Both the position numbers and the translations under genes were made by a program. Under the pieces are notes generated by a model, which searched no databases, was not told where the DNA came from, and was given only the letters and a program-made list of their open reading frames with translations. From IMG/VR virus record IMGVR_UViG_3300020424_000001, positions 1 to 37,568 of that record: a DNA stretch of 37,568 bases. One strand, given 5' to 3'. This document shows positions 12,899 through 31,645 of this stretch, one piece after another; the stretch's first letter is position 1, and the number at the start of each line of letters is the position of its first letter. The stretch comes from a virus.

Positions 12899-15800
12899 AT
12901 GGCACAAATTGATTTAGGCAAACTTAAGTTTAACTTCATGGGGGAGTGGAACAATAGCACTGCCTACAAAAAAGATGACGTAGTTTATTACGAAAGTTCA
13001 ACTTATGTTTATAGGTCAGATGTAAACGCAAACTCAGGAACACCACCTCAAAATACACATCTTGGCAGTGTTTGTGATTTGATGACACTGGGTATTAATT
13101 ATAGAGGAGCTTGGCAAGGTGGAACTACTTATTACAAAGGAGATTTAGTTGATTGGCAAAATGCAAAATATTTATTTATAGGTACTGGAAATAATCTCGT
13201 AAATACTTATAGTCCTACAGCAGCAGGTTACACAAGTCTTTGGACAGTGTTTATTCCTGCCAACCCTGCTGATGTCTTAACAACAAGTGGCGACTTGTTA
13301 ATGAGAGAGAATGACGGAGTAGCAAATGTAAGATTGCCAATAGGTAAAAAAGGACAATCTATAACAGTAATAGAAAAACCAGACCAAGATATACCAAACG
13401 ATAAGAACTTTGACTATGCTCCTTTTACTGGTAATGGAGATGCCCTTGGTTCTGGTATGAACAGATGGCTACTAGGAGATGAAAGAGAAACTTATGAATC
13501 AATTACTTATACAGTTACAGTTGCAACAGGTGCTAATAATGCAAATCAGTTTCACATGAGTGGAGGTAGTCTTTCTGGAACTGTTGAAAGACCTACACTA
13601 GATATAAAGATTGGGTCACAATATATCTTTGATGTTAGTGACGCTAGTAATACAGGTCATGTTTTAGCTTTTAGACACTGGACAGGTAGTTCTTATCCAG
13701 AAGTTGCTAGTGAAGCTGAGATGGGTATAACAAGATCAGGAACAGCAGGTCAGGCAGGAGCAACAGTAACATGGGTTCCTACACCTGCTTCTCAATATGT
13801 TTTAAGGTATTTCTGTTCTGTTCACTCAAGTATGAGTGATGGTATTTTTGCTACTAACTTTACTAGAGGACAGCAATTCCCTAAGATTTACAGATCGCCA
13901 CTACAAACTACTGCTGTCAAACTTTCAAAAGGAAAAACTTATTCATTTACATTTCCTGCAAACCAAAGAACTTACTCAATAAAAGATACTGCTGACTCAA
14001 ACTATAACCCGACTCTTACAGGTGGTCGTTATGAAAAAGGTGTTAGCCCAACCTCTATTACTAATGGAGGAACTATAAGTTTTACTGTTCCTGATGATGC
14101 ACCACAAACATTAAGTTTAGAAGATCAAAACGGAGGTGGAGATTCTTTAACTTTCAGTATTAAAGATAGAGCTTTTGTTCCTGCTTATGGAGGTGGAGAT
14201 TTTAGTGAAAAGAGTGTTCTTAGTTCTGTAAAAGAAAACTATCAACAAAACACAGCAGGAATACTCCAATTTAATAACTTCCCTAATCAAGCAGGTAATA
14301 CATATACAGAATCAATAAAAGCTTTACCTGATTATTTGAAGAAGGTAGGTCGAGGGTATGTGTATGGTTGTAACTCTGGATTCTATAGGCAAGGTGGATA
14401 TATAGGAAAGAGAGAAACTCATTTATGGGGTAACTTCTATCATGATGGTAACGATTATGTATATGGTGGAGGTATTGGACTAGATGGACAAAACGCAACT
14501 AATGGTAGTAGATGGCACCCAAACAAAGGAAGTAAAGTACAAGGCTACAAGCTAAGACAGGCACTAGCAGGTAATCCTGACTATGCCCATCTTCTTACAG
14601 ATTTGCTTGGCAATAGTTGCGATATGTTAGATGATAACGGAAACATAGTTCATAGGTTCCCTAAAGTTTTATCAGTTCATGGTAATAGAGCTATCAAGTA
14701 TCATTTATGTGAAAATGGTATGGTCTGGTTTAGTGGATATAACGGATATGGATTAATGGGAGATGGAGGAACTAGAGATAGAAACGAAGTGCAAGCACCT
14801 ATGAAGTGGTATGACGAAAGTACGTCAGAGTTAAAAGGTACAAACTTTCCAAAGATTAAACAAATTGTTACTTCTCATGCTCATGTTATGGACACTAATA
14901 GTAATGATTATGGTTCAGCTTACGCAGTAGATATAGATGGAAATTTATACAGTTGGGGTTACAACGGATATGGACAGTTAGGAGATGGAACTAATAACGG
15001 AAATTACTACGCAAAGAGAGTACCCGCTAGTGTATTTAATAATGAGAAAATATTGTATGTAACTTGTAGTGGCTATAGATATACACACGTTATGGTTATT
15101 ACTGAATCAGGTAAGTGTTGGGCAACAGGTTATGGAGATCAAGGTCAGCTAGGATTAAATAACACATCTAGTAGAAATGAGTTTGCTGAAGTAACAGCAG
15201 TTAGCGGTTCTCCTCTAAATGGCAAGAAAATAATTCACATAATAATGAACCAAGATGGAGACGCAGAAGGTAGAACATGGTGGTTAACAGACGAAGGTAA
15301 GGTTTATTACGCAGGTTACTTTAGAGATTACGGACAGCAAACAGGTGTATATGATTCAGCAGGTTCGGGAACTAATGGTATGCCTAGAATACTTACTAAC
15401 TCAAGTACTCTATGGAATAGTGATGACCAGAAAGTTATTTATATGGTTTGTACTAATGTCAGATATTCAACTTTATGGTTTATAACAGATGGTGGTTCTA
15501 CTGGTATGGAACAAAAAATATACTCCACTGCATCTAATTACTATGGTGTACAAGGAACTAATAACTCTCCTAATAGCCACACTAACTCTGCTAGTTTAGG
15601 CGGTTGGTTTGGTGGAGAAATATTGTTCTCTGACTTTGGAGACTTTGAAGATGGTGGAGATAACAGCAGACCAAATGAAGCTATAGGTAACTGGTCTAGT
15701 TTCCAAGATGGCGGTAGTAATGAAAAGAAAATGAAGATAGGTAAAATAATTGAGATTATTCCTAGAGGTACACCTGAGAATACATATAACTCTGTTGTTC

Positions 15801-16126
15801 TAATGGACGAGTTCGGTTCATTATTCTTTGCAGGTTATTGGAACTACACACCAAGTAGATCAAATGAAAATGATGGACAGCATTATTTAATATATCAAAA
15901 TCACTGGGTTCCTTATTTCATTCACTGGCCTGACCAACCCGCACAATGTATGGAAAATGGATTCTGTCATCTTGGATATGGTACAGAAAATGGTTGGTTC
16001 TGGTTAAGTAGGTTTGGAGATGTATATACAGGTGGAGATAATTCTTGGTATCAGCAATCAGACTACAATAGCAGTGGATATGATTGCGGATTCCCAAGTT
16101 GGAGTACACTAGATACAAACGGATAA
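12899..16126 (+). CDS. Large tail protein with RCC1-like propeller, probable receptor-binding protein
   Basis: This 1075-aa protein follows the fibre base gene after 2 bp. The N-terminus holds two carbohydrate-binding-module-like repeats (GEWNNSTAYKKDDVVYYESS near residue 15; YRGAWQGGTTYYKGDLVDW near 65). Residues about 200-320 resemble a cupredoxin-like fold seen in marine phage structural proteins, with a GHVLAF strand and FCSVHSSM. From about residue 480 onward there are about eight to nine RCC1-like repeats, such as VWFSGYNGYGLMGDG (about 608), LYSWGYNGYGQLGDGT (about 683) and CWATGYGDQGQLG (about 739). These predict a beta-propeller. Host recognition is an inference from position and repeats. 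Confidence 0.82.
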   Translation: MAQIDLGKLKFNFMGEWNNSTAYKKDDVVYYESSTYVYRSDVNANSGTPPQNTHLGSVCDLMTLGINYRGAWQGGTTYYKGDLVDWQNAKYLFIGTGNNLVNTYSPTAAGYTSLWTVFIPANPADVLTTSGDLLMRENDGVANVRLPIGKKGQSITVIEKPDQDIPNDKNFDYAPFTGNGDALGSGMNRWLLGDERETYESITYTVTVATGANNANQFHMSGGSLSGTVERPTLDIKIGSQYIFDVSDASNTGHVLAFRHWTGSSYPEVASEAEMGITRSGTAGQAGATVTWVPTPASQYVLRYFCSVHSSMSDGIFATNFTRGQQFPKIYRSPLQTTAVKLSKGKTYSFTFPANQRTYSIKDTADSNYNPTLTGGRYEKGVSPTSITNGGTISFTVPDDAPQTLSLEDQNGGGDSLTFSIKDRAFVPAYGGGDFSEKSVLSSVKENYQQNTAGILQFNNFPNQAGNTYTESIKALPDYLKKVGRGYVYGCNSGFYRQGGYIGKRETHLWGNFYHDGNDYVYGGGIGLDGQNATNGSRWHPNKGSKVQGYKLRQALAGNPDYAHLLTDLLGNSCDMLDDNGNIVHRFPKVLSVHGNRAIKYHLCENGMVWFSGYNGYGLMGDGGTRDRNEVQAPMKWYDESTSELKGTNFPKIKQIVTSHAHVMDTNSNDYGSAYAVDIDGNLYSWGYNGYGQLGDGTNNGNYYAKRVPASVFNNEKILYVTCSGYRYTHVMVITESGKCWATGYGDQGQLGLNNTSSRNEFAEVTAVSGSPLNGKKIIHIIMNQDGDAEGRTWWLTDEGKVYYAGYFRDYGQQTGVYDSAGSGTNGMPRILTNSSTLWNSDDQKVIYMVCTNVRYSTLWFITDGGSTGMEQKIYSTASNYYGVQGTNNSPNSHTNSASLGGWFGGEILFSDFGDFEDGGDNSRPNEAIGNWSSFQDGGSNEKKMKIGKIIEIIPRGTPENTYNSVVLMDEFGSLFFAGYWNYTPSRSNENDGQHYLIYQNHWVPYFIHWPDQPAQCMENGFCHLGYGTENGWFWLSRFGDVYTGGDNSWYQQSDYNSSGYDCGFPSWSTLDTNG

Positions 16127-16907: not shown

Positions 16908-16921
16908 GATATACTAAAATT

Positions 16922-17082
16922 CAGGCGACCAGACCTGCTTGATCTCTCTTAGGTTTTTAGTTGACTCCTTAAGATGAACTCAAGAATCCGTCAATGCCCT
17001 TGCAGTGGTCAACGGATTTATGAAACGAACACAAGTGGGAACTTGTTTAATTCGTAACTCCTCTACAGAACGTCAGTCGCCT
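16922..17082 (+). ncRNA. Candidate structured RNA between convergent genes
   Basis: This 165-bp gap between convergent genes is rich in pairing. A closing stem AGGCGAC (16923-16929) / GTCGCCT (17076-17082) encloses several hairpins. These are AGACCT/AGGTTT (16931-16936 / 16951-16956, one G-U), AATCCGT/ACGGATT (16985-16991 / 17012-17018), and ACAAGT-GGGA-ACTTGT (17031-17046) capped by the outer pairs ACGAA/TTCGT. The GGGA loop is a GNRA tetraloop only on the + strand, which favours a rightward RNA. The 3' arm overlaps the end of the leftward gene. It could be an independent RNA, a 3' UTR element or a bidirectional transcription stop. I do not recognise the family. Confidence 0.4.
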
Positions 17083-17603
17083 TTAAATTTTTCAGAGTTA
17101 GCCTTTACATAAGCTCTAATATTTATTACATCACTACAGATATAAGCAAATTCTGATTTAGGATTAATCATATAGCCAGAAGCGTGGAGTTGTGAACACT
17201 TTAAAACTCTCACTAATTGCTTATCATGGACTTGCTTGTCTAGTTCTTCTTTGGCTAGGTCTAGCTTTACTTTGGATAGTTCGTTACAAGTTTGATTATC
17301 TCCCAGAGGTATCATAAAACTCATTTGTATTCCCCAACCTTCATTGATGCTATAACTTTCTGATTGAGCATCATTTCCTGTATAAAAAGGAGTTACAGCC
17401 ATAGTAGGTTGACTACAAACTAAATTTCCAAACTGCTGTTTACCTGTCATTCCATTATTAATATTCATATTCTGATTGATAATACTGGAATTACCAATCG
17501 CATTTGGTTGAGCCTGTACGTTTGTATCGCCCTCGGCTCTAACTTTATTACTGACTAAAGACAGACAAAGAAGTAATAACGCTAGTGGTGTTGATCGTGT
17601 CAT
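17073..17603 (-). CDS. Exported protein, function unknown (176 aa)
   Basis: This leftward gene encodes a protein with a clear signal peptide (MTRSTPLALLLLCLSLVSN, then KVRA, probably cleaved before EG). I chose ATG 17603, because it puts the basic residues right before the hydrophobic core; an in-frame TTG at 17621 would add six residues. The mature part has an Asn/Gln-rich segment (about residues 28-60) and four or five cysteines, including LVCSQPTM and VLKCSQLH. It also has a GWGIQMSFMIPLG strand. It overlaps the upstream exported gene by 56 bp in another frame. The overlap recalls Rz/Rz1 spanins, but there is no lipobox or N-terminal anchor, so I do not call it a spanin. Confidence 0.8.
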   Translation of the reverse strand: MTRSTPLALLLLCLSLVSNKVRAEGDTNVQAQPNAIGNSSIINQNMNINNGMTGKQQFGNLVCSQPTMAVTPFYTGNDAQSESYSINEGWGIQMSFMIPLGDNQTCNELSKVKLDLAKEELDKQVHDKQLVRVLKCSQLHASGYMINPKSEFAYICSDVINIRAYVKANSEKFKGD

Positions 17604-17907
17604 TCTGTGTGATCTTTTCAATCATTAAACCTGATGCTCTCGAAGTCACATTTAATGACCAATCTTTTGAAGTATCTGCAACTGTAAATACTGCATCTCC
17701 ACCTGCAATACCTGCTGAAGCAGCCACACTTATATTAGAACCTTCCCAAGTATTTATAGTAGAGCCATATTTTTCTGTGACTACGCTGCGAGTTATGGTT
17801 TGAGTAGTATTCTCAGTTCTGTTACTTGAGCCAGTAGTCCACGTTGGCACTGTGTTTGCGTAACAGGGTGCTACTAAAAACAAACCTAGTAATAATAGTT
17901 TCTTCAT
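17548..17907 (-). CDS. Exported Thr/Ser-rich protein, function unknown (119 aa)
   Basis: This leftward gene has a typical signal peptide (MKKLLLLGLFLVAPCYA, cleavage predicted before NTV). The residue before Cys is Pro, so it is not a canonical lipobox. The mature part is rich in Thr, Ser and Asn and looks beta-structured (TENTTQTITRSVVTEKYGS; SVITSLSVFSQ at the C-terminus). Small secreted proteins with this look occur in cyanophages, as I recall, with no known function. Its ATG overlaps the stop of the holin-like gene (ATGA, 17904-17907) and its end overlaps the next leftward gene, so all three form one operon. Confidence 0.8.
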   Translation of the reverse strand: MKKLLLLGLFLVAPCYANTVPTWTTGSSNRTENTTQTITRSVVTEKYGSTINTWEGSNISVAASAGIAGGDAVFTVADTSKDWSLNVTSRASGLMIEKITQNDTINTTSVITSLSVFSQ

Positions 17908-18143
17908 TTGATGCCAACTTTAGAGTTCTTATTATCTACTATAGTATCTTTTTTCTTTTTTATCGAAAACCCAAGTGACGCAGTGGAAGCACTGAAAATA
18001 CTTGCAATAAATGTCGGGTCAAAATCTACTAATTTTTTACCAGAAGGAGGTTCGTAATATGAGAGAGATAATAGCGTTGCCGACCAAAGAAGTACGCAGA
18101 CTTTGACAATGGTTTCAACTTTACTTGGCTCTTGATCTTCCAT
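17904..18143 (-). CDS. Small membrane protein with two spans, holin candidate (79 aa)
   Basis: This first gene of the leftward operon encodes 79 aa with two hydrophobic segments: VKVCVLLWSATLLSLSYY (about 12-29) and FIASIFSASTASLGFSI (about 45-61). The N-terminus is acidic (MEDQEPSK) and the C-terminus is highly charged (KKKKDTIVDNKNSK). Size and layout fit a class II holin, which would place both ends in the cytoplasm. Genetic context near the terminase, as for T7 gene 17.5, also fits. No lytic enzyme is encoded next to it, so the call is tentative. Confidence 0.7.
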   Translation of the reverse strand: MEDQEPSKVETIVKVCVLLWSATLLSLSYYEPPSGKKLVDFDPTFIASIFSASTASLGFSIKKKKDTIVDNKNSKVGIK

Positions 18144-18933: not shown

Positions 18934-20655
18934 TTGCAAGAATTACCAGAAAAGCTACTTGACTTTAGATATTTCTTAATCGTTACTTGGAGACATCTAA
19001 ACCTACCAGACCCTACACCTGTTCAACTAGATATAGCAGAATATCTACAGCATGGGGCTAGAAGAAAGATCATACAGGGGTTTCGTGGTGTAGGTAAAAG
19101 TTGGATTACAAGTACTTACGTTGTATGGCGATTAAGGATAGACCCACAACTAAAGTTTCTTGTGGTATCTGCCAGTAAAGACAGGGCTGATAACTTTACT
19201 ACCTTCACTATGCGTCTTATAAACGAGATGCCTATACTAGCTCCACTAATCCCCAGAGATGACCAGAGAAACAGTAAGGTAAGTTTTGATGTAAGACCTG
19301 CCAGTGCCGATCACGCACCCTCCTGTTCCTCTAAGGGGGTCTTATCGCAGCTTGCAGGGAGTCGTGCTGATGAAGTTATAGCAGACGATTGCGAAGTGCC
19401 TAACAACAGCTTTACGCAGCCTATGAGAGACAAACTAGGCGAAGCTGTAAAAGAATTTGAAGCCATATTAAAACCAAATGGAAAGATTACCTTCCTTGGT
19501 ACACCACAAGTAGAAAATAGTTTGTACCTGACACTAGAAGAACGTGGCTATGAAACACGAATATGGACAGCTAGGTACCCAAATCATAAAAACAACTATG
19601 GAGATCGTCTTGCTCCTCGTATTGCAAAGAACTTATCAGAAGGAATCGCAGAACCAAAAGACCCTGTTGACCCTATAAGGTTCTCAGCCATTGATCTAAT
19701 GGAACGTGAAGCGTCTTATGGGCGATCAGGGTTCAATCTACAGTTCATGCTCGATACGACCCTCTCAGACCAAGATAGATACCCCTTAAAAATTAACGAC
19801 CTAATAATTATGTCGGTCAATAAAGAATACGCACCTGAAAAAGTTATATGGTCTAACTCCCCTGAATATGTAATTACTGATTTACCCTGCGTTGGATTCA
19901 ATGGAGACAGGTATCATAGACCTGCACAGGAGTTCGGAGACTACATTGAATACACAGGAAGCGTAATGTTTGTTGACCCATCTGGTACAGGAAAAGACCA
20001 GACAGCTATATCCTGTGTAAAGATGCTAAATGGTAACTTATTCGTTACAGAGTGCTTTGGTTTGTCGGGAGGTTACAGCGATAGAGTCCTAGAACGCATA
20101 GCTAGAACCGCAAAAGTCAATAAGATCAACACAATAATCGTAGAACAGAACTTTGGTGGTGGTATGTTTTCACAATTACTAAAACCTTTCCTAATGACTT
20201 ACCACCCTTGTGAGGTAAAAGACGTGCGAAATACCAAAACTAAAGAATTACGCATAATCGACACGCTAGAACCTGTAATGAACTCTCATAGACTTATTAT
20301 TGACCGCAAAGTTATAGATAATGACTTTAAATCAAACCCTGATGAAACTCCTGAAAGAAGACTTAAACTACAACTTGCCTATCAACTTAGTCGTATCTCT
20401 AGAAACAAAGGTTCGCTAGTTCATGATGACCTTTGTGACTCACTTGCAGGTGCAGTTGCATACTGGACAGACTATATGGCTCAAACTGAAGACATGAATA
20501 TCGCTAAAAGACACGAAGAATTAATTAATACACACCTAGAAAACTGGGGTCACGTTCTTAATAACACTGTTTCACAAGCTGCTATGGGTATGACTCCTCA
20601 ACAAATAAGAAATTCTAATGTATCTGATGATGGTTTCATAAGCGGAGCTTATTAG
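18934..20655 (+). CDS. Terminase large subunit (T7 gp19-like)
   Basis: This 573-aa protein is the packaging ATPase and nuclease (586 aa in T7). Walker A is GFRGVGKS (residues 49-56). Walker B with catalytic acids is DEVIADDCEV (from about residue 146). The nuclease domain shows FVDPSGTGKD (about 345-354) and VHDDLCDSLAGAV (about 495-507), which carry the metal-binding aspartates. The start is TTG at 18934, directly after the small subunit TAA (TAATTG junction). It is the last late gene; beyond it lies the 609-bp control region where the genome ends probably are. Confidence 0.95.
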   Translation: MQELPEKLLDFRYFLIVTWRHLNLPDPTPVQLDIAEYLQHGARRKIIQGFRGVGKSWITSTYVVWRLRIDPQLKFLVVSASKDRADNFTTFTMRLINEMPILAPLIPRDDQRNSKVSFDVRPASADHAPSCSSKGVLSQLAGSRADEVIADDCEVPNNSFTQPMRDKLGEAVKEFEAILKPNGKITFLGTPQVENSLYLTLEERGYETRIWTARYPNHKNNYGDRLAPRIAKNLSEGIAEPKDPVDPIRFSAIDLMEREASYGRSGFNLQFMLDTTLSDQDRYPLKINDLIIMSVNKEYAPEKVIWSNSPEYVITDLPCVGFNGDRYHRPAQEFGDYIEYTGSVMFVDPSGTGKDQTAISCVKMLNGNLFVTECFGLSGGYSDRVLERIARTAKVNKINTIIVEQNFGGGMFSQLLKPFLMTYHPCEVKDVRNTKTKELRIIDTLEPVMNSHRLIIDRKVIDNDFKSNPDETPERRLKLQLAYQLSRISRNKGSLVHDDLCDSLAGAVAYWTDYMAQTEDMNIAKRHEELINTHLENWGHVLNNTVSQAAMGMTPQQIRNSNVSDDGFISGAY

Positions 20656-21264: not shown

Positions 21265-22227
21265 ATGACTACATCATCAAAACCTAGAGTAAAAGTTGAA
21301 GAGGAAATTCTAAACGATTTCATGAGAATCCTTGAGGAGAACAAAGATTCTCGCAATCCTTGGGCTAAACCTTGGAACCCTAGCTCTTCGGAGGGTCACA
21401 TAAATTTCCTTACTGGGAATCGTTATCAAGGCATGAATGTAATTATCTTGGAGATGTATCAGTTCTCCAAGGGATATGAACTACCTTGTTGGATAGGCTA
21501 TCAACAGGCCAAAAAGGAATTTAATTGTGTTCCTAGAAAAGGCTCAAAAGCTGCTCGTATAGTCCGTCCTAATCCTATCAGGATTGATGCCAAAGATGAC
21601 AACGGAAACCCTATTCTTGATAAAGAGGGCAACCCTGAGTTTTACATGAAGATGACTTTCAAGGGTGCAACTGTTTTCAATATCGCTGATCTAGTCGGAC
21701 TTGATGAAAAAGCTCAAGAAAAGCTAGACCAAAAGATCGCAAGCTTCAAGACTAAATGTGTTGAAAATGCAAGGCCACTTGCTGAAAGATGCAAAGAAGC
21801 TCACGACCGCTTGATGATCTTCAAAGAGGAACTAGAGGGTGGTTTACATCACGGGTCAGATAGAGCTTATTACAGGCACGATCTTGACTCAGTGACAATG
21901 CCAAACAGGGAGGATTTCAAAACTGACGAGGGCTATCTTGCAACCCTAGCTCATGAGTTCTCACACGCCACTGGACACAAGTCAAGAACTAATAGAAAGT
22001 GGTTAAACAACTACACTCAATACAGGCCACAAGAGGAGCTAGTAGCTGAGTTCTCAGCAGTGCTAATCGCTAACAGATTACAGATCACTTGCGATACTCA
22101 GAACCACGCTTCATACCTCGGAGGTTGGGCATCTCAGATCAAGAATTCTAAGAACCCTGCTCAAGAGTTATTCAAGGTCTTTGCATACGCTTCAAAAGCT
22201 GCTAATACAGTACTTGGCGAAGCTTAA
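21265..22227 (+). CDS. ArdC-like antirestriction protein (zincin metallopeptidase domain)
   Basis: This 320-aa protein has the ArdC/TraC layout. The N-terminal ssDNA-binding type domain (about 1-150) includes NPWAKPWN, GNRYQGMNVIIL, WIGYQQAKK and KGSKAARIV. The C-terminal zincin domain carries HEFSHATGH (H230, E231, H234) and the third-ligand helix with E262 (PQEELVAEFSAVL). ArdC proteins of plasmids protect incoming DNA against host restriction, which fits a first-entering early gene. No Shine-Dalgarno site is seen before ATG 21265, unlike the genes downstream. The family is plasmid-associated, so transfer from a plasmid or another phage is plausible. Confidence 0.88.
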   Translation: MTTSSKPRVKVEEEILNDFMRILEENKDSRNPWAKPWNPSSSEGHINFLTGNRYQGMNVIILEMYQFSKGYELPCWIGYQQAKKEFNCVPRKGSKAARIVRPNPIRIDAKDDNGNPILDKEGNPEFYMKMTFKGATVFNIADLVGLDEKAQEKLDQKIASFKTKCVENARPLAERCKEAHDRLMIFKEELEGGLHHGSDRAYYRHDLDSVTMPNREDFKTDEGYLATLAHEFSHATGHKSRTNRKWLNNYTQYRPQEELVAEFSAVLIANRLQITCDTQNHASYLGGWASQIKNSKNPAQELFKVFAYASKAANTVLGEA

Positions 22228-25087: not shown

Positions 25088-25315
25088 ATGGCTGTTTGTC
25101 CTAACAAAGAGTGTCGCAGTACTAATACAAAGTATTTAGATACAAGACACAGACAGGAAAGCAGAGCAACAAAGAAGCCCTATACCTATCGGTCTAGGGT
25201 TTGTTTGTCTTGTGGTAAACGCTTTGCTACTAGAGAGTATTCCATTCAAGACTTGATTGACTTTGGCAAGCAAGGATATATGGAGATGATTGACGATCTA
25301 ATTAAAAACAACTAA
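25088..25315 (+). CDS. Zinc-ribbon protein, NrdR- or Ogr-like (75 aa)
   Basis: This 75-aa protein carries a four-cysteine zinc ribbon: C4-x4-C9 and C39-x2-C42, with VCLSCGKRFATREYS after the second pair. That segment strongly resembles the N-terminal ribbon of NrdR, the ribonucleotide reductase repressor. The ATP-cone of NrdR is missing and no reductase is encoded here. The spacing also recalls phage Ogr/Delta late-gene activators. Either way, a small DNA-binding regulator is likely. It lies 13 bp upstream of the integrase gene. Confidence 0.75.
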   Translation: MAVCPNKECRSTNTKYLDTRHRQESRATKKPYTYRSRVCLSCGKRFATREYSIQDLIDFGKQGYMEMIDDLIKNN

Positions 25316-25328
25316 CCAAAAGGAGACA

Positions 25329-26168
25329 ATGAAAAACAAAGTACCAACCCTCAAGGAAGCTGCTTTCATAACCTACAAGAGGAGAAAGAACGGAGAGAAA
25401 TCGGCTGATGATTTTCTCGTCAGCATGAAACATAATATCCAAGCTCTTGGGAACATACCTGTAAACAAAATAACTACAAGTATGATTAGCAAGATGAATG
25501 ACTACAACAAAGCAAGACCCAACTGTAACGAGGTAGTCAATAAAAAGATGGGGCATCTCAAGTTAGTACTTGATGATTGCAAAGATGATGGACACATTAC
25601 AATGCCTGAGTTTCCCAAGCCATTGAAGGTAAAGAAAAACAAGAAGGTTCATTACTTAACTAATGAGATGGAGATTGAGTTGTTGGATAAGGTCACAGAG
25701 CTTGGTCATCATGAACACAGAGATGTATTCAAGTGCTTGATTGATCTGGGTTGCAGGTGCATGGAGTTACTCACTCTTGAGAAAAGATTTATTGACTTTG
25801 AAAAGAATCAAATTACATTTCAAGAAAGAAAAAACGGAAGGCCAAATACTGTACCAATGAGTAACAAAGTAAGAGATATTATCAAGCCATACTATGACAA
25901 GTGCAATACCTTGGATTATGTATTCGACCATAATTATTATTGGGCTGAGAGTGTGTTCAAGAAGGTCAAGAGAGAACTAGGTTATCAGCAACACAAGTGG
26001 TACAAGATACATCTCTTTAGAGATACAGCAGGGTCGAGGTTAGTACAACGTGGAGTACATCTCTTGATAGTCAGAGATTGGTTAGGTCATGAAGATGTAA
26101 AGATGACAGAGAAGTATGCCCATCTTGCCCCTGACTCTATGCACTCAGTAGTGGAGGTATTGAACTAA
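25329..26168 (+). CDS. int: Tyrosine recombinase / integrase
   Basis: This 279-aa protein has the full catalytic set of the tyrosine recombinase family: R143 (GCRCMELL), K168 in the beta-hairpin (ERKNGRPNTVPM), H228 and R231 (HLFRDTAGS), H254 (WLGHEDV) and nucleophile Y263 (EKYAHL). An N-terminal core-binding (SAM-like) domain spans about residues 1-95. ATG 25329 follows AACCAAAAGGAGACA. Integrases at this position, before RNA polymerase, are known in cyanopodoviruses such as P-SSP7. No attachment site or excisionase could be identified. Confidence 0.92.
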   Translation: MKNKVPTLKEAAFITYKRRKNGEKSADDFLVSMKHNIQALGNIPVNKITTSMISKMNDYNKARPNCNEVVNKKMGHLKLVLDDCKDDGHITMPEFPKPLKVKKNKKVHYLTNEMEIELLDKVTELGHHEHRDVFKCLIDLGCRCMELLTLEKRFIDFEKNQITFQERKNGRPNTVPMSNKVRDIIKPYYDKCNTLDYVFDHNYYWAESVFKKVKRELGYQQHKWYKIHLFRDTAGSRLVQRGVHLLIVRDWLGHEDVKMTEKYAHLAPDSMHSVVEVLN

Positions 26169-26374
26169 TGAAGTTTACCGATAGCCAAATCTTTTTTATC
26201 AATGACTCAATTAGAAAAGAGTTAAACGAGCAAGAAATATTTTTAAAATATTTAACTGATTTAGCACAAAAAGAAAATGATTTAGCAAAGAAAAATAAGA
26301 TCAATAAGTCTGTTGAATTGTGTGTAGAAAAGATACAAGAACTTGAAGCGTTGAGAGGTTTACTTCATGAATGA
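26168..26374 (+). CDS. Small coiled-coil protein (68 aa)
   Basis: This 68-aa protein starts in a TAATG overlap with the integrase stop and ends 8 bp inside the RNA polymerase gene. It is highly charged and almost wholly helical (YLTDLAQKENDLAKKNKINK ...), suggesting a coiled coil. The site GTGGAGGT lies upstream. A regulator of integrase or polymerase is possible from position only. Confidence 0.65.
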   Translation: MKFTDSQIFFINDSIRKELNEQEIFLKYLTDLAQKENDLAKKNKINKSVELCVEKIQELEALRGLLHE

Positions 26375-28769
26375 ACCAAGCAAGAAACAACTAGACCTAG
26401 AGCAAAGTATCTTTAGCATCTCAGGGTATAACAAGATCAGTAAGAATAATAAACTCAGAGAGCAGGGAAGGGAGTCTGAAACATACTATGCTCGCAACAT
26501 GATTGAAGCAGGGCTAGAGGAATTAACAAAGCAGACTCAGAACTATATATATAAATCTTTGAGTGGACAAGTAGGAGTCAAATCGTTAGCTGCTATATAC
26601 CTAAATCAATTCCCTGATATTGACGTAGTTTCTTTTATAACTTTCAAGGTCATCATAGACAACGTATCCCTTGGCAAGGTAACAACACAAGTAGCAATCA
26701 ACATAGGTCAGATGTTGGAAGATGAAATGCGATACACAATCTTTGAAGAACAAGACCCTAAACATTTCAAAGCAATTCAATATCATACCAGAGATACAAA
26801 CCACCAAGGTTATAAAAAGAATATGGTTAGATCACACATGAGTAAGAAGGGCATAGAGTTCAAGACTTGGAGTAAAGAAAATAAATTAAAAATTGGTATG
26901 GTTCTGATTGACTTAGTTGTTAATCATATTGGAATGATAAAGCTAGTAAACAAAAGGGTAGGCAAGACAACTACTTCATGTGTAGTCTTCACTGATGTAG
27001 CAGACAAGTGGATAAGAAAGAACAGAGCCAACCGCATAGCTGCTTATCCTTTATATCTTCCGTGCTTCGATAAGCCCAAACAATATACAACTTTATTTGA
27101 TGGAGGTTATTACACAGAGAGACTTAGGACTTCAGCTATCAAGACTACTAATCAAGAGACATTAAAAAAGTTACAAGAAGAAAACTTAACAGTATGTCTA
27201 AAGGCTCTAAACCTTGCGTCAAGTACTGCGTGGGGGGTAAATAAATTTGTGTTTGATACTCTTGTATATTGTTGGGAAGAAAGAATAGAAGTAGGGGGAT
27301 TGATTGATAGAGAACCACTTGAATTACCAGTAAAGCCTGAAGGTTTTGGAGAGGATAAGGAGGTAACAAAACAATGGAGTTACCACGCAGGTTTAATTCA
27401 TGATACAAACCACGCAAACAAAGTAAAGAGATTCCAAATACTTTCAATGATAGACACAGCGAAAAGTTATCTTGGCGAAAAATTTTTTCACGTTTATCAA
27501 ATGGATTTCACTTCAAGACTTTATCCTGTAACTGCACACTTCCACCCACAAGGAACTGATATTGCCAGAGCCTTACATCAATTCTATGAGGGTGCAGAGA
27601 TCAAGAATAAAAGACACTTAGATTGGTTGGCTATAGCAGGAGCCAATGCCTTTGGTCATAACAAGTTAAGTTATGAAGATAGATTAGAGTGGGCTTACAT
27701 AGAAGGCACAGACTTTGCTGAACAGGTAGCACTCAACCCACTGGACAATATAGATATATGGGGTCAAGCAAAAGAGCCTTGGCAATTCTTGGCTTGGTGC
27801 AAAGAGTGGCATGAATTTATGCAGGTAGGTATGGACAATGGTTTTATCTCACGTTTCTGTTGTTGTCTTGATGGTACTAACAATGGATACCAACATATCG
27901 CAGGGTTAATTTCATCTCAAGAACTAGCACAAAAGGTTAACTTGCAGAGAGCAAGTAAGCCACAGGATTTATATAAAGATGTTCTAGCTAGAGTCATAGA
28001 AATATTAGAGACAGATACAACAACGCAAGGCAAGAACTGGAATAAGATTTCAAACCTGTTGACTAGAAAGTTTATAAAGAAACCAGTGCTTATGATTCCA
28101 TATAACTCAACGACCTTTGGCATAGCTAACTACATAGAAAAATATTTTGTTGCAAAAAATATTTCAATGGCAAAAAATTTTAAGAATAACTTTTACCTTG
28201 CTGCAATAATCGAACAGGCTGTAAAAGATATATGCCCTGAGAGTTATCAAGTTTTAAATTACTTGTCAAAGATAGCTCTATGTTTTAACAAAGAGAACAA
28301 GACTATCTCATGGCATACCCCATCTGGGTTTCTGGTACAGCAGAAGTACTATACAAACCAGACTAAAAGAATCAAGACCAAGCTCAGTAATCAAACAGTT
28401 TACCTGAGTCTTGCCGAGCCTGACGAGAAGCTAGTCAACAAGAGAAAACAACTGCAAGGTTTCCCAAGTAATTACATACATTCCTTTGACGCTGCACACC
28501 TACAGTTGAGCTTGGTTGAAGCAAGCAAGATGGGTCTTGAACAGTTCTGTATTATTCACGATTGCTTTGGTAGTCCTGCTGCTGAACTTGATAGGTTAAT
28601 TGAATGTGTTAAGCAGACATTCTTCTACATATATAGTGATAATAATTTAGATAACTTACATCATCAAGCAGCAGATCAATTAAGTAATAGTAAGGGATTA
28701 CCACCTGCACTACTGATGGGGGAGTTTGATATTACAGATGTGTTGACAGCACCATATATATTTACATAA
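26367..28769 (+). CDS. Single-subunit DNA-directed RNA polymerase (T7 gp1-like)
   Basis: This 800-aa protein (883 aa in T7) transcribes the phage middle and late genes. Key residues align with T7: D502 in LDGTNNGYQHIAG (T7 D537), K571 and Y579 in RKFIKKPVLMIPYNSTTFG (T7 K631 and Y639), and D732 in CIIHDCFGS (T7 D812). The MDFTSRLYPVTAHFHPQGTD segment is the family motif before the palm. The C-terminus is somewhat short but includes both catalytic aspartates. It starts 8 bp before the end of the coiled-coil gene. It must recognise phage promoters, candidates for which are at 20650 and 35046. Confidence 0.96.
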   Translation: MNEPSKKQLDLEQSIFSISGYNKISKNNKLREQGRESETYYARNMIEAGLEELTKQTQNYIYKSLSGQVGVKSLAAIYLNQFPDIDVVSFITFKVIIDNVSLGKVTTQVAINIGQMLEDEMRYTIFEEQDPKHFKAIQYHTRDTNHQGYKKNMVRSHMSKKGIEFKTWSKENKLKIGMVLIDLVVNHIGMIKLVNKRVGKTTTSCVVFTDVADKWIRKNRANRIAAYPLYLPCFDKPKQYTTLFDGGYYTERLRTSAIKTTNQETLKKLQEENLTVCLKALNLASSTAWGVNKFVFDTLVYCWEERIEVGGLIDREPLELPVKPEGFGEDKEVTKQWSYHAGLIHDTNHANKVKRFQILSMIDTAKSYLGEKFFHVYQMDFTSRLYPVTAHFHPQGTDIARALHQFYEGAEIKNKRHLDWLAIAGANAFGHNKLSYEDRLEWAYIEGTDFAEQVALNPLDNIDIWGQAKEPWQFLAWCKEWHEFMQVGMDNGFISRFCCCLDGTNNGYQHIAGLISSQELAQKVNLQRASKPQDLYKDVLARVIEILETDTTTQGKNWNKISNLLTRKFIKKPVLMIPYNSTTFGIANYIEKYFVAKNISMAKNFKNNFYLAAIIEQAVKDICPESYQVLNYLSKIALCFNKENKTISWHTPSGFLVQQKYYTNQTKRIKTKLSNQTVYLSLAEPDEKLVNKRKQLQGFPSNYIHSFDAAHLQLSLVEASKMGLEQFCIIHDCFGSPAAELDRLIECVKQTFFYIYSDNNLDNLHHQAADQLSNSKGLPPALLMGEFDITDVLTAPYIFT

Positions 28770-28837: not shown

Positions 28838-29506
28838 ATGGAATCAATTAAATCGGAGCAGATTAAAATAGTCACTCCAGTAGGAACTCGCTTTCGTTAT
28901 TCGTGGCTAGTAACACCTGATGAATACATGGGTGTTGAGAAGTGGAAGACAGAAGCTATGGTACCTGTCGGCACAATCGTCAAGGTAAAAGAAAATGGCA
29001 AAGAAGTAGAACATGAAGCTACTCAATACATAGCCAACCAGTTAGAAAACCTACTTGAAGGTTGGAAGACACAGTTAAAAGCTGCTTACCCAAACAGAGA
29101 ATTTACTCTTACAAAAAACAAGAACACAGGTAAGCCTACCTTTCCTTGGTCATTTGAAAATGACTTCTTAATCTTGAAGCTCAAGAAAAATGTCAAAGGA
29201 TTAAAAGGTAACAACCAACCGATACAACTGTATAAGCATGACTCTGCTTCAGGACAAAACTTATTAATGAGTGAAGCCGAAAGACAAACTATGAATAAGA
29301 TAAGTCCAGAGACTACAGGCCAAGCAGCTATGCTTGCTTCTGGCTATGACGCACAGGGTAATGGTGTTGGTATCAAACTGTTCCCCATATCTTTTTGCTT
29401 CAGGGATATAGTTCCTTGGACAGGAGGAGGAGCAGATGATTTTGATACAGCAGAACCATCAAGCTATGAAGAAAAAACTCCGACCCCAACAGCAGCCGAC
29501 TTCTAA
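28838..29506 (+). CDS. Single-stranded DNA-binding protein (T7 gp2.5-like)
   Basis: This 222-aa protein (232 aa in T7) covers single-stranded DNA and coordinates replication proteins. It shows the OB-fold pattern of the family (TPVGTRFRYSWLVTPDEYM; FPISFCFRDIVPW near the end) and an acidic, Pro-rich tail that ends with Phe (TPTPTAADF). The terminal Phe is the family's contact residue for polymerase and helicase, and it is kept here although no phage polymerase gene exists. Its 3' end overlaps the endonuclease gene by 41 bp. Confidence 0.9.
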   Translation: MESIKSEQIKIVTPVGTRFRYSWLVTPDEYMGVEKWKTEAMVPVGTIVKVKENGKEVEHEATQYIANQLENLLEGWKTQLKAAYPNREFTLTKNKNTGKPTFPWSFENDFLILKLKKNVKGLKGNNQPIQLYKHDSASGQNLLMSEAERQTMNKISPETTGQAAMLASGYDAQGNGVGIKLFPISFCFRDIVPWTGGGADDFDTAEPSSYEEKTPTPTAADF

Positions 29507-29855
29507 GTACAAGAGTAAATTTGAAAGTCAATTTGCTGACGACCTTAAAAAAAAGAAACTTATCTTTACCTATGAAACACTCAGCATTGACTATGAAATT
29601 ACTTGCACCTATCGCCCTGACTTTATCCTCAACAATTTTATTGTGGAAACGAAGGGCTACTTCTCCAAAGAAGACAGACGCAAGCATCTTGCAATTAAGG
29701 AGAAAAGACCCGACCTAGATATAAGGTTCTGTTTTCAAAACAGCAAGACCAAACTATCCAAGGCCAAGAACTCTATCTCGTATGCCGATTGGTGTACGAG
29801 ACATGGGTTTCAATACTGCGACAAATTTATTCCAGAAGATTGGTATGACAAGTAA
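29466..29855 (+). CDS. Endonuclease I, Holliday junction resolvase (T7 gp3-like)
   Basis: This 129-aa protein matches T7 endonuclease I (149 aa), which cleaves branched DNA and degrades host DNA. Starting at ATG 29466, the catalytic residues fall at E20 (SKFESQ), D52 (YRPDF), E61 and K63 (IVETKG), closely matching T7 E20, D55, E65 and K67. That agreement supports this start over the ATG at 29436. The segment around RRKHLAIKEKRPDLDIRF is also conserved. It overlaps the SSB gene upstream and the small gene downstream (11 bp). Confidence 0.93.
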   Translation: MKKKLRPQQQPTSKYKSKFESQFADDLKKKKLIFTYETLSIDYEITCTYRPDFILNNFIVETKGYFSKEDRRKHLAIKEKRPDLDIRFCFQNSKTKLSKAKNSISYADWCTRHGFQYCDKFIPEDWYDK

Positions 29856-30021: not shown

Positions 30022-31645
30022 CTCAAGCTACAAAGTTAAAGAAGTTTGCCCTGAGTGTGGCAAGAAAAACTGTGCGGTCTTTAGTGATGGACATAAGCAT
30101 TGTTTCACTATGGATTGCGGATACACTTACTATCCAAACAAGAAAAATTTATCGTCTGCTTACTCAAAGAAAATGATAGACAAAGTGACACCACTATTTA
30201 AAACAAGTCCAAAGCTATTGAAGGTAACACCCATAGCATTATCCAAACGTGGAATCACTAAAGAGACTTGCGAACTATTTGGTTATGGACAGGCTGAGTT
30301 TAAAGGTATGCCTGTTCAAGTAGCTACATACAAAGATCAAAAGGGTAATGATGTAGCACAACACGTTAGATTTCCTGACAAAAAATTTTCTTGGATAGGA
30401 GATATAAAAGAAGTACAGCTTTGGGGTCAACATTTATGGCGTCAGCATGGCGGTAATGGTTCCGTCTTTGTAACTGTTTGCGAAGGAGAGATTGATTGCA
30501 TGAGTGCTAGTCAGATACAGGGTAATAAGTTTCCCTGTGTATCTATTCCGTCAGGTGTACAATCAGCAGCCAAGTATCTAGCAGCTAACTACAAATGGTT
30601 AGATACTTATTGTCGTATAGTTCTATGCTTTGATAATGATGAAGCAGGTAACAGAGCAGCAGAGAAATGCTTGGAAGTTTTACCCAAAGGCAAAGTAGCA
30701 ATAGCAAAGCTTGATCGTAATGACGTGAACGATCATCTGGTATTGAATGAAGGAGAGATAGTAAGACAAAAGTTATGGAAAGCTAGACCAGTTAGACCAG
30801 ACAGTTTAATTAATGGAGCAGACGCATGGGATTTGTTTATTAAAGAAACAAGTAAACCAATATCAGACTTTCCATTTCCAAAACTAAATGACTTTACAAG
30901 AGGTTTGTTTCCTAGCCAACTGTTCACAGTTGCTAGTGGAAGTGGAGCAGGTAAGTCCACGATATGCAGAGAACTTGCATATCATTTCTTAACCAAGAAT
31001 CTAAAGCTTGGTTACATAGGATTAGAAGAATCAGTACAAAGAACTTTACAGGGATTAGTTGGTATTGATATGAATGTACCGCTACACCTCGAAGATGATA
31101 TTGACCCTGATGAAGTGAAGAGTTCATTTGATAAGCTGACATCTTCTCGTAACTTATATTTATATAATCACTTTGGTAGTCTTGACCCTGATGTATTGCT
31201 TGAGCAGATCAGATACTTAGCAACTGTTGATGGGGTTCAGATAGTAATACTAGATCATATAACTATAGTTACTTCAGGTCTTGAATTGGAGAATGAAAGA
31301 CGTGCTATTGATGTGACAATGACTAAGCTTAGAAGTCTATGCGAATCAACTGGCATAGCTTTGATACTTGTTAGTCATCTACGCAGACCGCAAGGACAAT
31401 CACATGAGTCGGGTAGAGAGATTGATACTTCAGATTTGAAGGGGAGTTCTGGACTACTTCAACTAAGTGATGTCGTATTAGGTGCATCAAGAAATCAGGT
31501 AGGCGAAGCTAGTGAAAGACAAAGGCTACAGCTAAAGATACTTAAGTCAAGACATACAGGTATGACAGGAGAAGTAGATAAGTTATTGTATGACCAGAAG
31601 ACAGGTCGGTTAATAGTTTATGAAAACACATTCGGAGATTTATGA
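30014..31645 (+). CDS. DNA primase-helicase (T7 gp4-like)
   Basis: This 543-aa protein has the full gp4A layout (566 aa in T7). The zinc-binding domain has C12, C15, C30 and C35. The TOPRIM primase domain has E157 (VCEGEIDCMSA) and D207/D209 (CFDNDEAGN). The hexameric helicase has Walker A GSGAGKST (about 309-316) and a downstream VILDHITIV Walker B (near residue 415). It unwinds DNA and primes the lagging strand. Its TGA overlaps the exonuclease ATG (31642-31645), leaving no room for the polymerase gene that normally follows. Confidence 0.95.
   Translation: MPSSSYKVKEVCPECGKKNCAVFSDGHKHCFTMDCGYTYYPNKKNLSSAYSKKMIDKVTPLFKTSPKLLKVTPIALSKRGITKETCELFGYGQAEFKGMPVQVATYKDQKGNDVAQHVRFPDKKFSWIGDIKEVQLWGQHLWRQHGGNGSVFVTVCEGEIDCMSASQIQGNKFPCVSIPSGVQSAAKYLAANYKWLDTYCRIVLCFDNDEAGNRAAEKCLEVLPKGKVAIAKLDRNDVNDHLVLNEGEIVRQKLWKARPVRPDSLINGADAWDLFIKETSKPISDFPFPKLNDFTRGLFPSQLFTVASGSGAGKSTICRELAYHFLTKNLKLGYIGLEESVQRTLQGLVGIDMNVPLHLEDDIDPDEVKSSFDKLTSSRNLYLYNHFGSLDPDVLLEQIRYLATVDGVQIVILDHITIVTSGLELENERRAIDVTMTKLRSLCESTGIALILVSHLRRPQGQSHESGREIDTSDLKGSSGLLQLSDVVLGASRNQVGEASERQRLQLKILKSRHTGMTGEVDKLLYDQKTGRLIVYENTFGDL

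Follow-up and report, generated by a model that had tools for sequence, protein, structure and literature searches.

Bacteriophage T7 is the textbook example of a small replisome with its own polymerase, and the acidic, Phe-ended tail of its primase-helicase, gp4, docks the DNA polymerase, gp5. The gp5 gene lies between gp4 and gp6 in T7 as well as in the polymerase-bearing phages HTVC120P, HTVC109P, CRP-361, and S-TIP28. A cyanopodovirus lineage without a DNA polymerase gene, MPP-C, was described in 2022, and its isolates infect MED4 without the gene; the polymerase options proposed were host Pol I, host Pol III, and a very divergent phage polymerase (PMC9860041). The window analyzed here, a whole stretch of 37,568 bases that includes an exact 77-bp direct repeat at both ends, is an uncultured ocean cyanopodovirus of this published lineage. 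It belongs to the P-SCSP2 branch and is a new species-level member. Of the characteristics given for MPP-C (PMC9860041), the following are found in the window: the DNA polymerase gene is absent, the core genes cluster with those of P-SCSP1 and P-SCSP2 in the gp4 and gp6 trees, the genome size lies within the range of ~37.3 to 37.9 kb, and psbA, hli, mazG, rnr, talC, and thyX are missing from the Pfam matches. The initial annotation had pointed to a polymerase-less cyanopodovirus lineage of which the window was perhaps a member or a relative; that lineage is real and is MPP-C (PMC9860041). The missing gene is thus a real feature of a lineage already published, and the additions made here are modest, namely, the loss of the helicase tail, the lack of a replacement gene, and the spread of GC content within the clade.

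The contig is circular as assembled, since both ends carry the exact 77-bp repeat, which is a typical assembly overlap, and the major capsid gene runs across the contig ends. This agrees with the closed genome claimed initially. The homologues of gp1, gp2.5, gp3, gp4, and gp6 named at that time were also recovered with Pfam and PHROGs (Table 1). The gp2.5 assignment is based on phrog_112 (E = 6e-4) and on alignment with known single-stranded DNA-binding proteins (SSBs), as Pfam gives nothing for this protein. The gp4 of the window matches the T7 gp4 structure, with the primase, TOPRIM, and helicase domains all intact. The T7-like single-subunit RNA polymerase and the T7-like gene order are those of Autographiviridae, and the five homologues, together with the structural genes, are syntenic with those of T7, P-SSP7 (MPP-B), HTVC120P, and CRP-361. 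In contrast to the window, these four phages carry gp5 between gp4 and gp6 and have a gp4 tail ending in acidic DF, and the marine phages among them (P-SSP7, HTVC120P, and CRP-361) possess ribonucleotide reductase genes. The window therefore departs from the classical T7-type replisome in two respects: gp5 is absent, and the acidic, Phe-ended gp4 tail is gone.

Table 1. Positions of the main features in the window and the basis of their assignment
Feature	Position	Strand	Basis or remark
Probable lysis cassette, three genes	17073..18143	-	Position and membrane-type sequences
Tyrosine integrase, early region	25329..26168	+	PF00589, E = 6e-20
T7-like single-subunit RNA polymerase (gp1)	26367..28769	+	phrog_414, E = 2e-187; PF00940
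gp2.5-like SSB, tail end AADF	28838..29506	+	phrog_112; alignment with known SSBs
gp3-like endonuclease I, overlaps SSB gene	29436..29855	+	PF05367, E = 7e-37
gp4-like primase-helicase, 543 aa	30014..31645	+	phrog_239, E = 5e-159; Helic-prim_T7_N, Toprim, DnaB_C
gp4 C-terminal tail after TGRL, IVYENTFGDL	31613..31642	+	Without acidic, Phe-ended docking tail
ATGA overlap of gp4 stop and gp6 start	31642..31645	+	Position of gp5 (DNA polymerase) in relatives
gp6-like 5'-3' exonuclease, 249 aa	31642..32391	+	phrog_107, E = 1e-44; PF02739

At the junction, gp4 ends with TGA at 31643-31645 and gp6 starts with ATG at 31642-31644, so that the two genes share an ATGA at the gp5 site; the sequence reads here as initially annotated. 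No match to PF00476 was obtained in a six-frame translation of the whole record, although the positive controls did score, and the genes and larger open reading frames (ORFs) gave no DNA polymerase against all of Pfam and PHROGs. These profile searches had been proposed along with the claim that the genome lacks a DNA polymerase, and all of them came back empty. The unassigned ORFs were considered as a place for a hidden polymerase, but the profile scans yielded none. The same holds for close relatives. Viral contigs with more than 50% gp4 identity are polymerase-less wherever this is decidable, whereas those at or below 44% are polymerase bearing; in a second scan, the polymerase was absent from 74 of 74 decidable close relatives. 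Among whole contigs, PF00476 matched none of the 24 that are polymerase-less, some of which measure 37 to 40 kb, and all 6 of the others.

The gp4-gp6 junction is tight in 94 of the 95 polymerase-less loci examined, with the ATGA overlap in 50 and the two genes within a few bases of each other in 44 more. Contigs from other samples (L093 to L097) have a junction nearly letter-identical to that of the window, and the junction is also tight in the isolates P-SCSP1a and P-SCSP2 and in fosmid GU943031. No polymerase was found at this position in other assemblies, the comparison that the initial annotation had put forward; independent contigs and MED4 isolates agree. Since tight junctions recur across independent assemblies as well as sequenced MED4 phages, the junction is not an assembly fault, and the chance that assembly dropped a polymerase gene or joined two fragments is negligible. 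In the sole exception among the 95 loci, contig L024, gp4 is separated from gp6 by an insert of 0.8 kb (1550-2350). A polymerase relic was ruled out for this insert, in which a zinc-ribbon ORF and an HNH endonuclease were identified. The window itself encodes, at 25088-25315, a 75-aa zinc ribbon protein that resembles NrdR but lacks the remainder of it, and a related ORF occupies the gp5 position of contig G004.

We additionally compared the gene families of 7 polymerase-less and 5 polymerase-bearing genomes by blastp, which very short or fast-evolving genes may escape. DNA polymerase is the only family present in all 5 polymerase-bearing genomes and in none of the 7 others, and no family is both confined to and shared throughout the 7 polymerase-less genomes. 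A clade-wide replacement or adaptor gene was therefore not found at this level of comparison. These results bear on a phage-encoded polymerase too divergent to recognize, hidden in the large internal virion proteins or in a small early ORF, which is among the options kept in the description of MPP-C (PMC9860041). Several early ORFs of 56 to 151 aa have no family match and leave some room for such an enzyme. However, the longest unassigned early ORF reaches only 151 aa, the 1,474-aa protein has a match to a family of internal virion proteins, the 1,009-aa protein has a glucosaminidase domain and sits at the gp15 position, and the comparison revealed no family that is clade wide and absent elsewhere. 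We regard a divergent phage polymerase as quite improbable.

The single-subunit RNA polymerase is structurally related to Pol I and could alternatively have come to make DNA. T7 RNA polymerase accepts dNTPs when Tyr639 is replaced by Phe, and all 49 RNA polymerases from polymerase-less phages have N, S, or A directly after this tyrosine (T7 G640), where the others mostly have G. The sugar-selecting tyrosine itself is kept in the window and in all 49, which argues against this explanation, and the T7-type RNA polymerase has no proofreading domain. A DNA-synthesizing RNA polymerase is accordingly rated as extremely improbable.

In the gp4 tree (80 rows) and the gp6 tree (62 rows), all polymerase-less phages fall on one side of a branch with SH-aLRT support of 100 and 99, respectively; therefore, one change suffices to explain the absence of the gene. 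P-SCSP1 and P-SCSP2 are nested inside a wider clade with contigs of 57 to 60% GC (G001, G004, and L025). The GC content of these members suggests, as a guess, that the polymerase-less clade also has hosts other than Prochlorococcus, perhaps Synechococcus. The packaging genes give a different picture. The TerL tree, of only ten rows, splits the polymerase-less phages in two and places the window and P-SCSP2 nearer roseophage and pelagiphage, apart from P-SCSP1; the TerL of the window (18934-20655) has 58% identity to those of roseophages versus 51% to that of P-SCSP1. Two changes are needed on the portal tree, where the branches are long. Of the trees proposed in the initial annotation, that of TerL thus joins the window to P-SCSP2 and separates it from P-SCSP1, and that of the portal requires two changes. 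Because TerL divides the polymerase-less phages, the history of the whole genome is not one of simple single descent. Module exchange is a possible explanation for the TerL pattern, and the history of the replication module may differ from that of the packaging genes.

DF forms the C-terminus of gp4 in T7, P-SSP7, and P-RSP2. Among polymerase-bearing phages, the stretch after TGRL has a median of 15 residues, 5 of them acidic, and ends in Phe in 41 of 59 cases, whereas in polymerase-less phages, the median is 10 residues with 1 acidic, and a terminal Phe is found in 2 of 17; the terminal Phe is also missing in 18 of the 59 polymerase-bearing relatives. As judged from these sequences, the polymerase-less clade as a whole has lost the gp5-docking helicase tail, in keeping with a real and old loss of gp5. 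The tail counts are not independent evidence, since the tail changed a single time on the tree. Neither "C-terminal" nor "acidic" appears in the main text of the MPP-C description (PMC9860041), so the loss of the helicase tail seems to be unreported there. The SSBs of polymerase-less phages keep an aromatic end. The acidic, Phe-ended SSB tail noted initially is indeed present, but its reading as a gp5 contact fails, as the lineage has no gp5; the helicase tail, which is more informative here, was overlooked initially. The aromatic end may serve the SSB's own control of DNA binding and does not imply a gp5 partner. A more tentative idea, which we consider possible but doubtful, is that the clade has swapped the acidic helicase tail for a short aromatic one (such as TFGDL, YFGT, or FFGEKL) and reaches a host polymerase via the helicase or SSB tail, also in the non-Prochlorococcus hosts of members with 57 to 60% GC.

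Taken as a whole, the window is very probably a complete T7-like MPP-C podovirus, with Prochlorococcus as the probable host, that descends from a single ancient gp5 loss and depends on a host replicase for synthesis. The family A DNA polymerase gene would have disappeared a single time, far back, in the ancestor of the replication module. The phage gp4 would still unwind and prime phage DNA, the phage SSB would coat it, and gp6 would remove primers and degrade host DNA, while a host replicase would carry out synthesis and be reached via surfaces of gp4 or the SSB, not via a dedicated adaptor. The presence of the T7 copying machinery without a DNA polymerase of its own makes it very probable that a host enzyme is borrowed, and the initial suggestion that Pol III or Pol I is recruited appears sound.

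Between these two enzymes, we rank the Pol III holoenzyme above Pol I and consider its recruitment somewhat probable. Satellite phage P4 provides a precedent, in which a phage primase-helicase works with host Pol III. No clamp-binding motif was seen among the replication proteins, so Pol III is not favored on this point. Such motifs were discarded as a lead because they are present only in the tail tubular protein gp12 and in a 73-aa ORF. Recruitment of host Pol I instead would agree with its membership in the family of gp5, and Pol I is one of the options listed previously (PMC9860041). However, Pol I functions mostly in repair, and the gp4 tail that, in T7, docks a polymerase of family A is gone; we consider Pol I a possible but rather unlikely partner. 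A widespread clade that has a helicase, a primase, and an SSB but no polymerase offers a natural experiment on the ways in which a phage helicase can couple to a host polymerase, and the lost helicase tail is a concrete lead that is testable per residue. This clade is missed by surveys that count cyanophages via the DNA polymerase gene.

The gp4, gp6, and TerL sequences and the gene order group the window with isolate P-SCSP2 (OM416780, MPP-C; 84% identity in gp4 and 85% in TerL), which together with fosmid GU943031 (MedDCM-OCT-S08-C159, genus Jalkavirus) is the closest record. P-SCSP2 has a 37-kb genome without DNA polymerase, an integrase upstream of the RNA polymerase, and a minus-strand lysis cassette, as does the window. 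It is nevertheless a different species, with identities of 64% in gp6, 55 to 58% in the SSB, and 51% in the integrase, and its internal virion proteins and tail fiber diverge from those of the window; gp4 and gp6 are separated by 2 bases in P-SCSP2 and overlap in the window. The fosmid, known as a 10-kb fragment only, shares the ATGA overlap (83% identity in gp4 and 73% in gp6). P-SCSP1a to P-SCSP1u (MPP-C) likewise have no DNA polymerase, carry the ATGA overlap, and fall in the clade of the window in the gp4 and gp6 trees. However, they show ~50% gp4 identity to the window, have no annotated integrase, and carry a TerL of another lineage on the opposite strand.

The first two minus-strand genes of the window are 91 to 98% identical in P-SCSP2 and 82 to 83% identical in P-SCSP1a, both MED4 phages; the similarity to their relatives in P-SSP7 and P-RSP2 is weaker. 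No relatives of the cassette genes were found in pelagiphage HTVC120P or roseophage CRP-361. As this cassette is common to Prochlorococcus phages, it supports Prochlorococcus as the host, which the window probably infects. A noncoding stretch at 16908-17072 adjoins the cassette, is 76% identical to its counterpart in P-SCSP2, and contains an inverted repeat, AATCCGT...ACGGATT; an Rfam search including this stretch gave no match. For the integrase, neither the T-loop motif nor a tRNA scan nor the conserved noncoding DNA yielded a usable attP site, and no attB site was found. A search for prophages in cellular genomes returned only phage contigs binned with a metagenome-assembled genome.

Several further observations concern individual genes. 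The first gene after the noncoding stretch beyond TerL, at 21265-22227, encodes an ArdC-like anti-restriction protein with an ArdC N-terminal domain and a zincin-like peptidase (phrog_7245), and P-SCSP2 has one too. A tail protein of 1,075 aa at 12899-16126 has RCC1-like repeats. P-SCSP2 was said to have no recognizable endonuclease gene (PMC9860041), but an endonuclease I frame, unannotated in the record, overlaps its SSB gene (5185-5628 of L001). The 2,571-aa virion protein of P-SCSP1a (18788-26503 of L091) matches, over part of its length, the far end of the portal proteins in phrog_21; this part is perhaps a fused enzyme domain.
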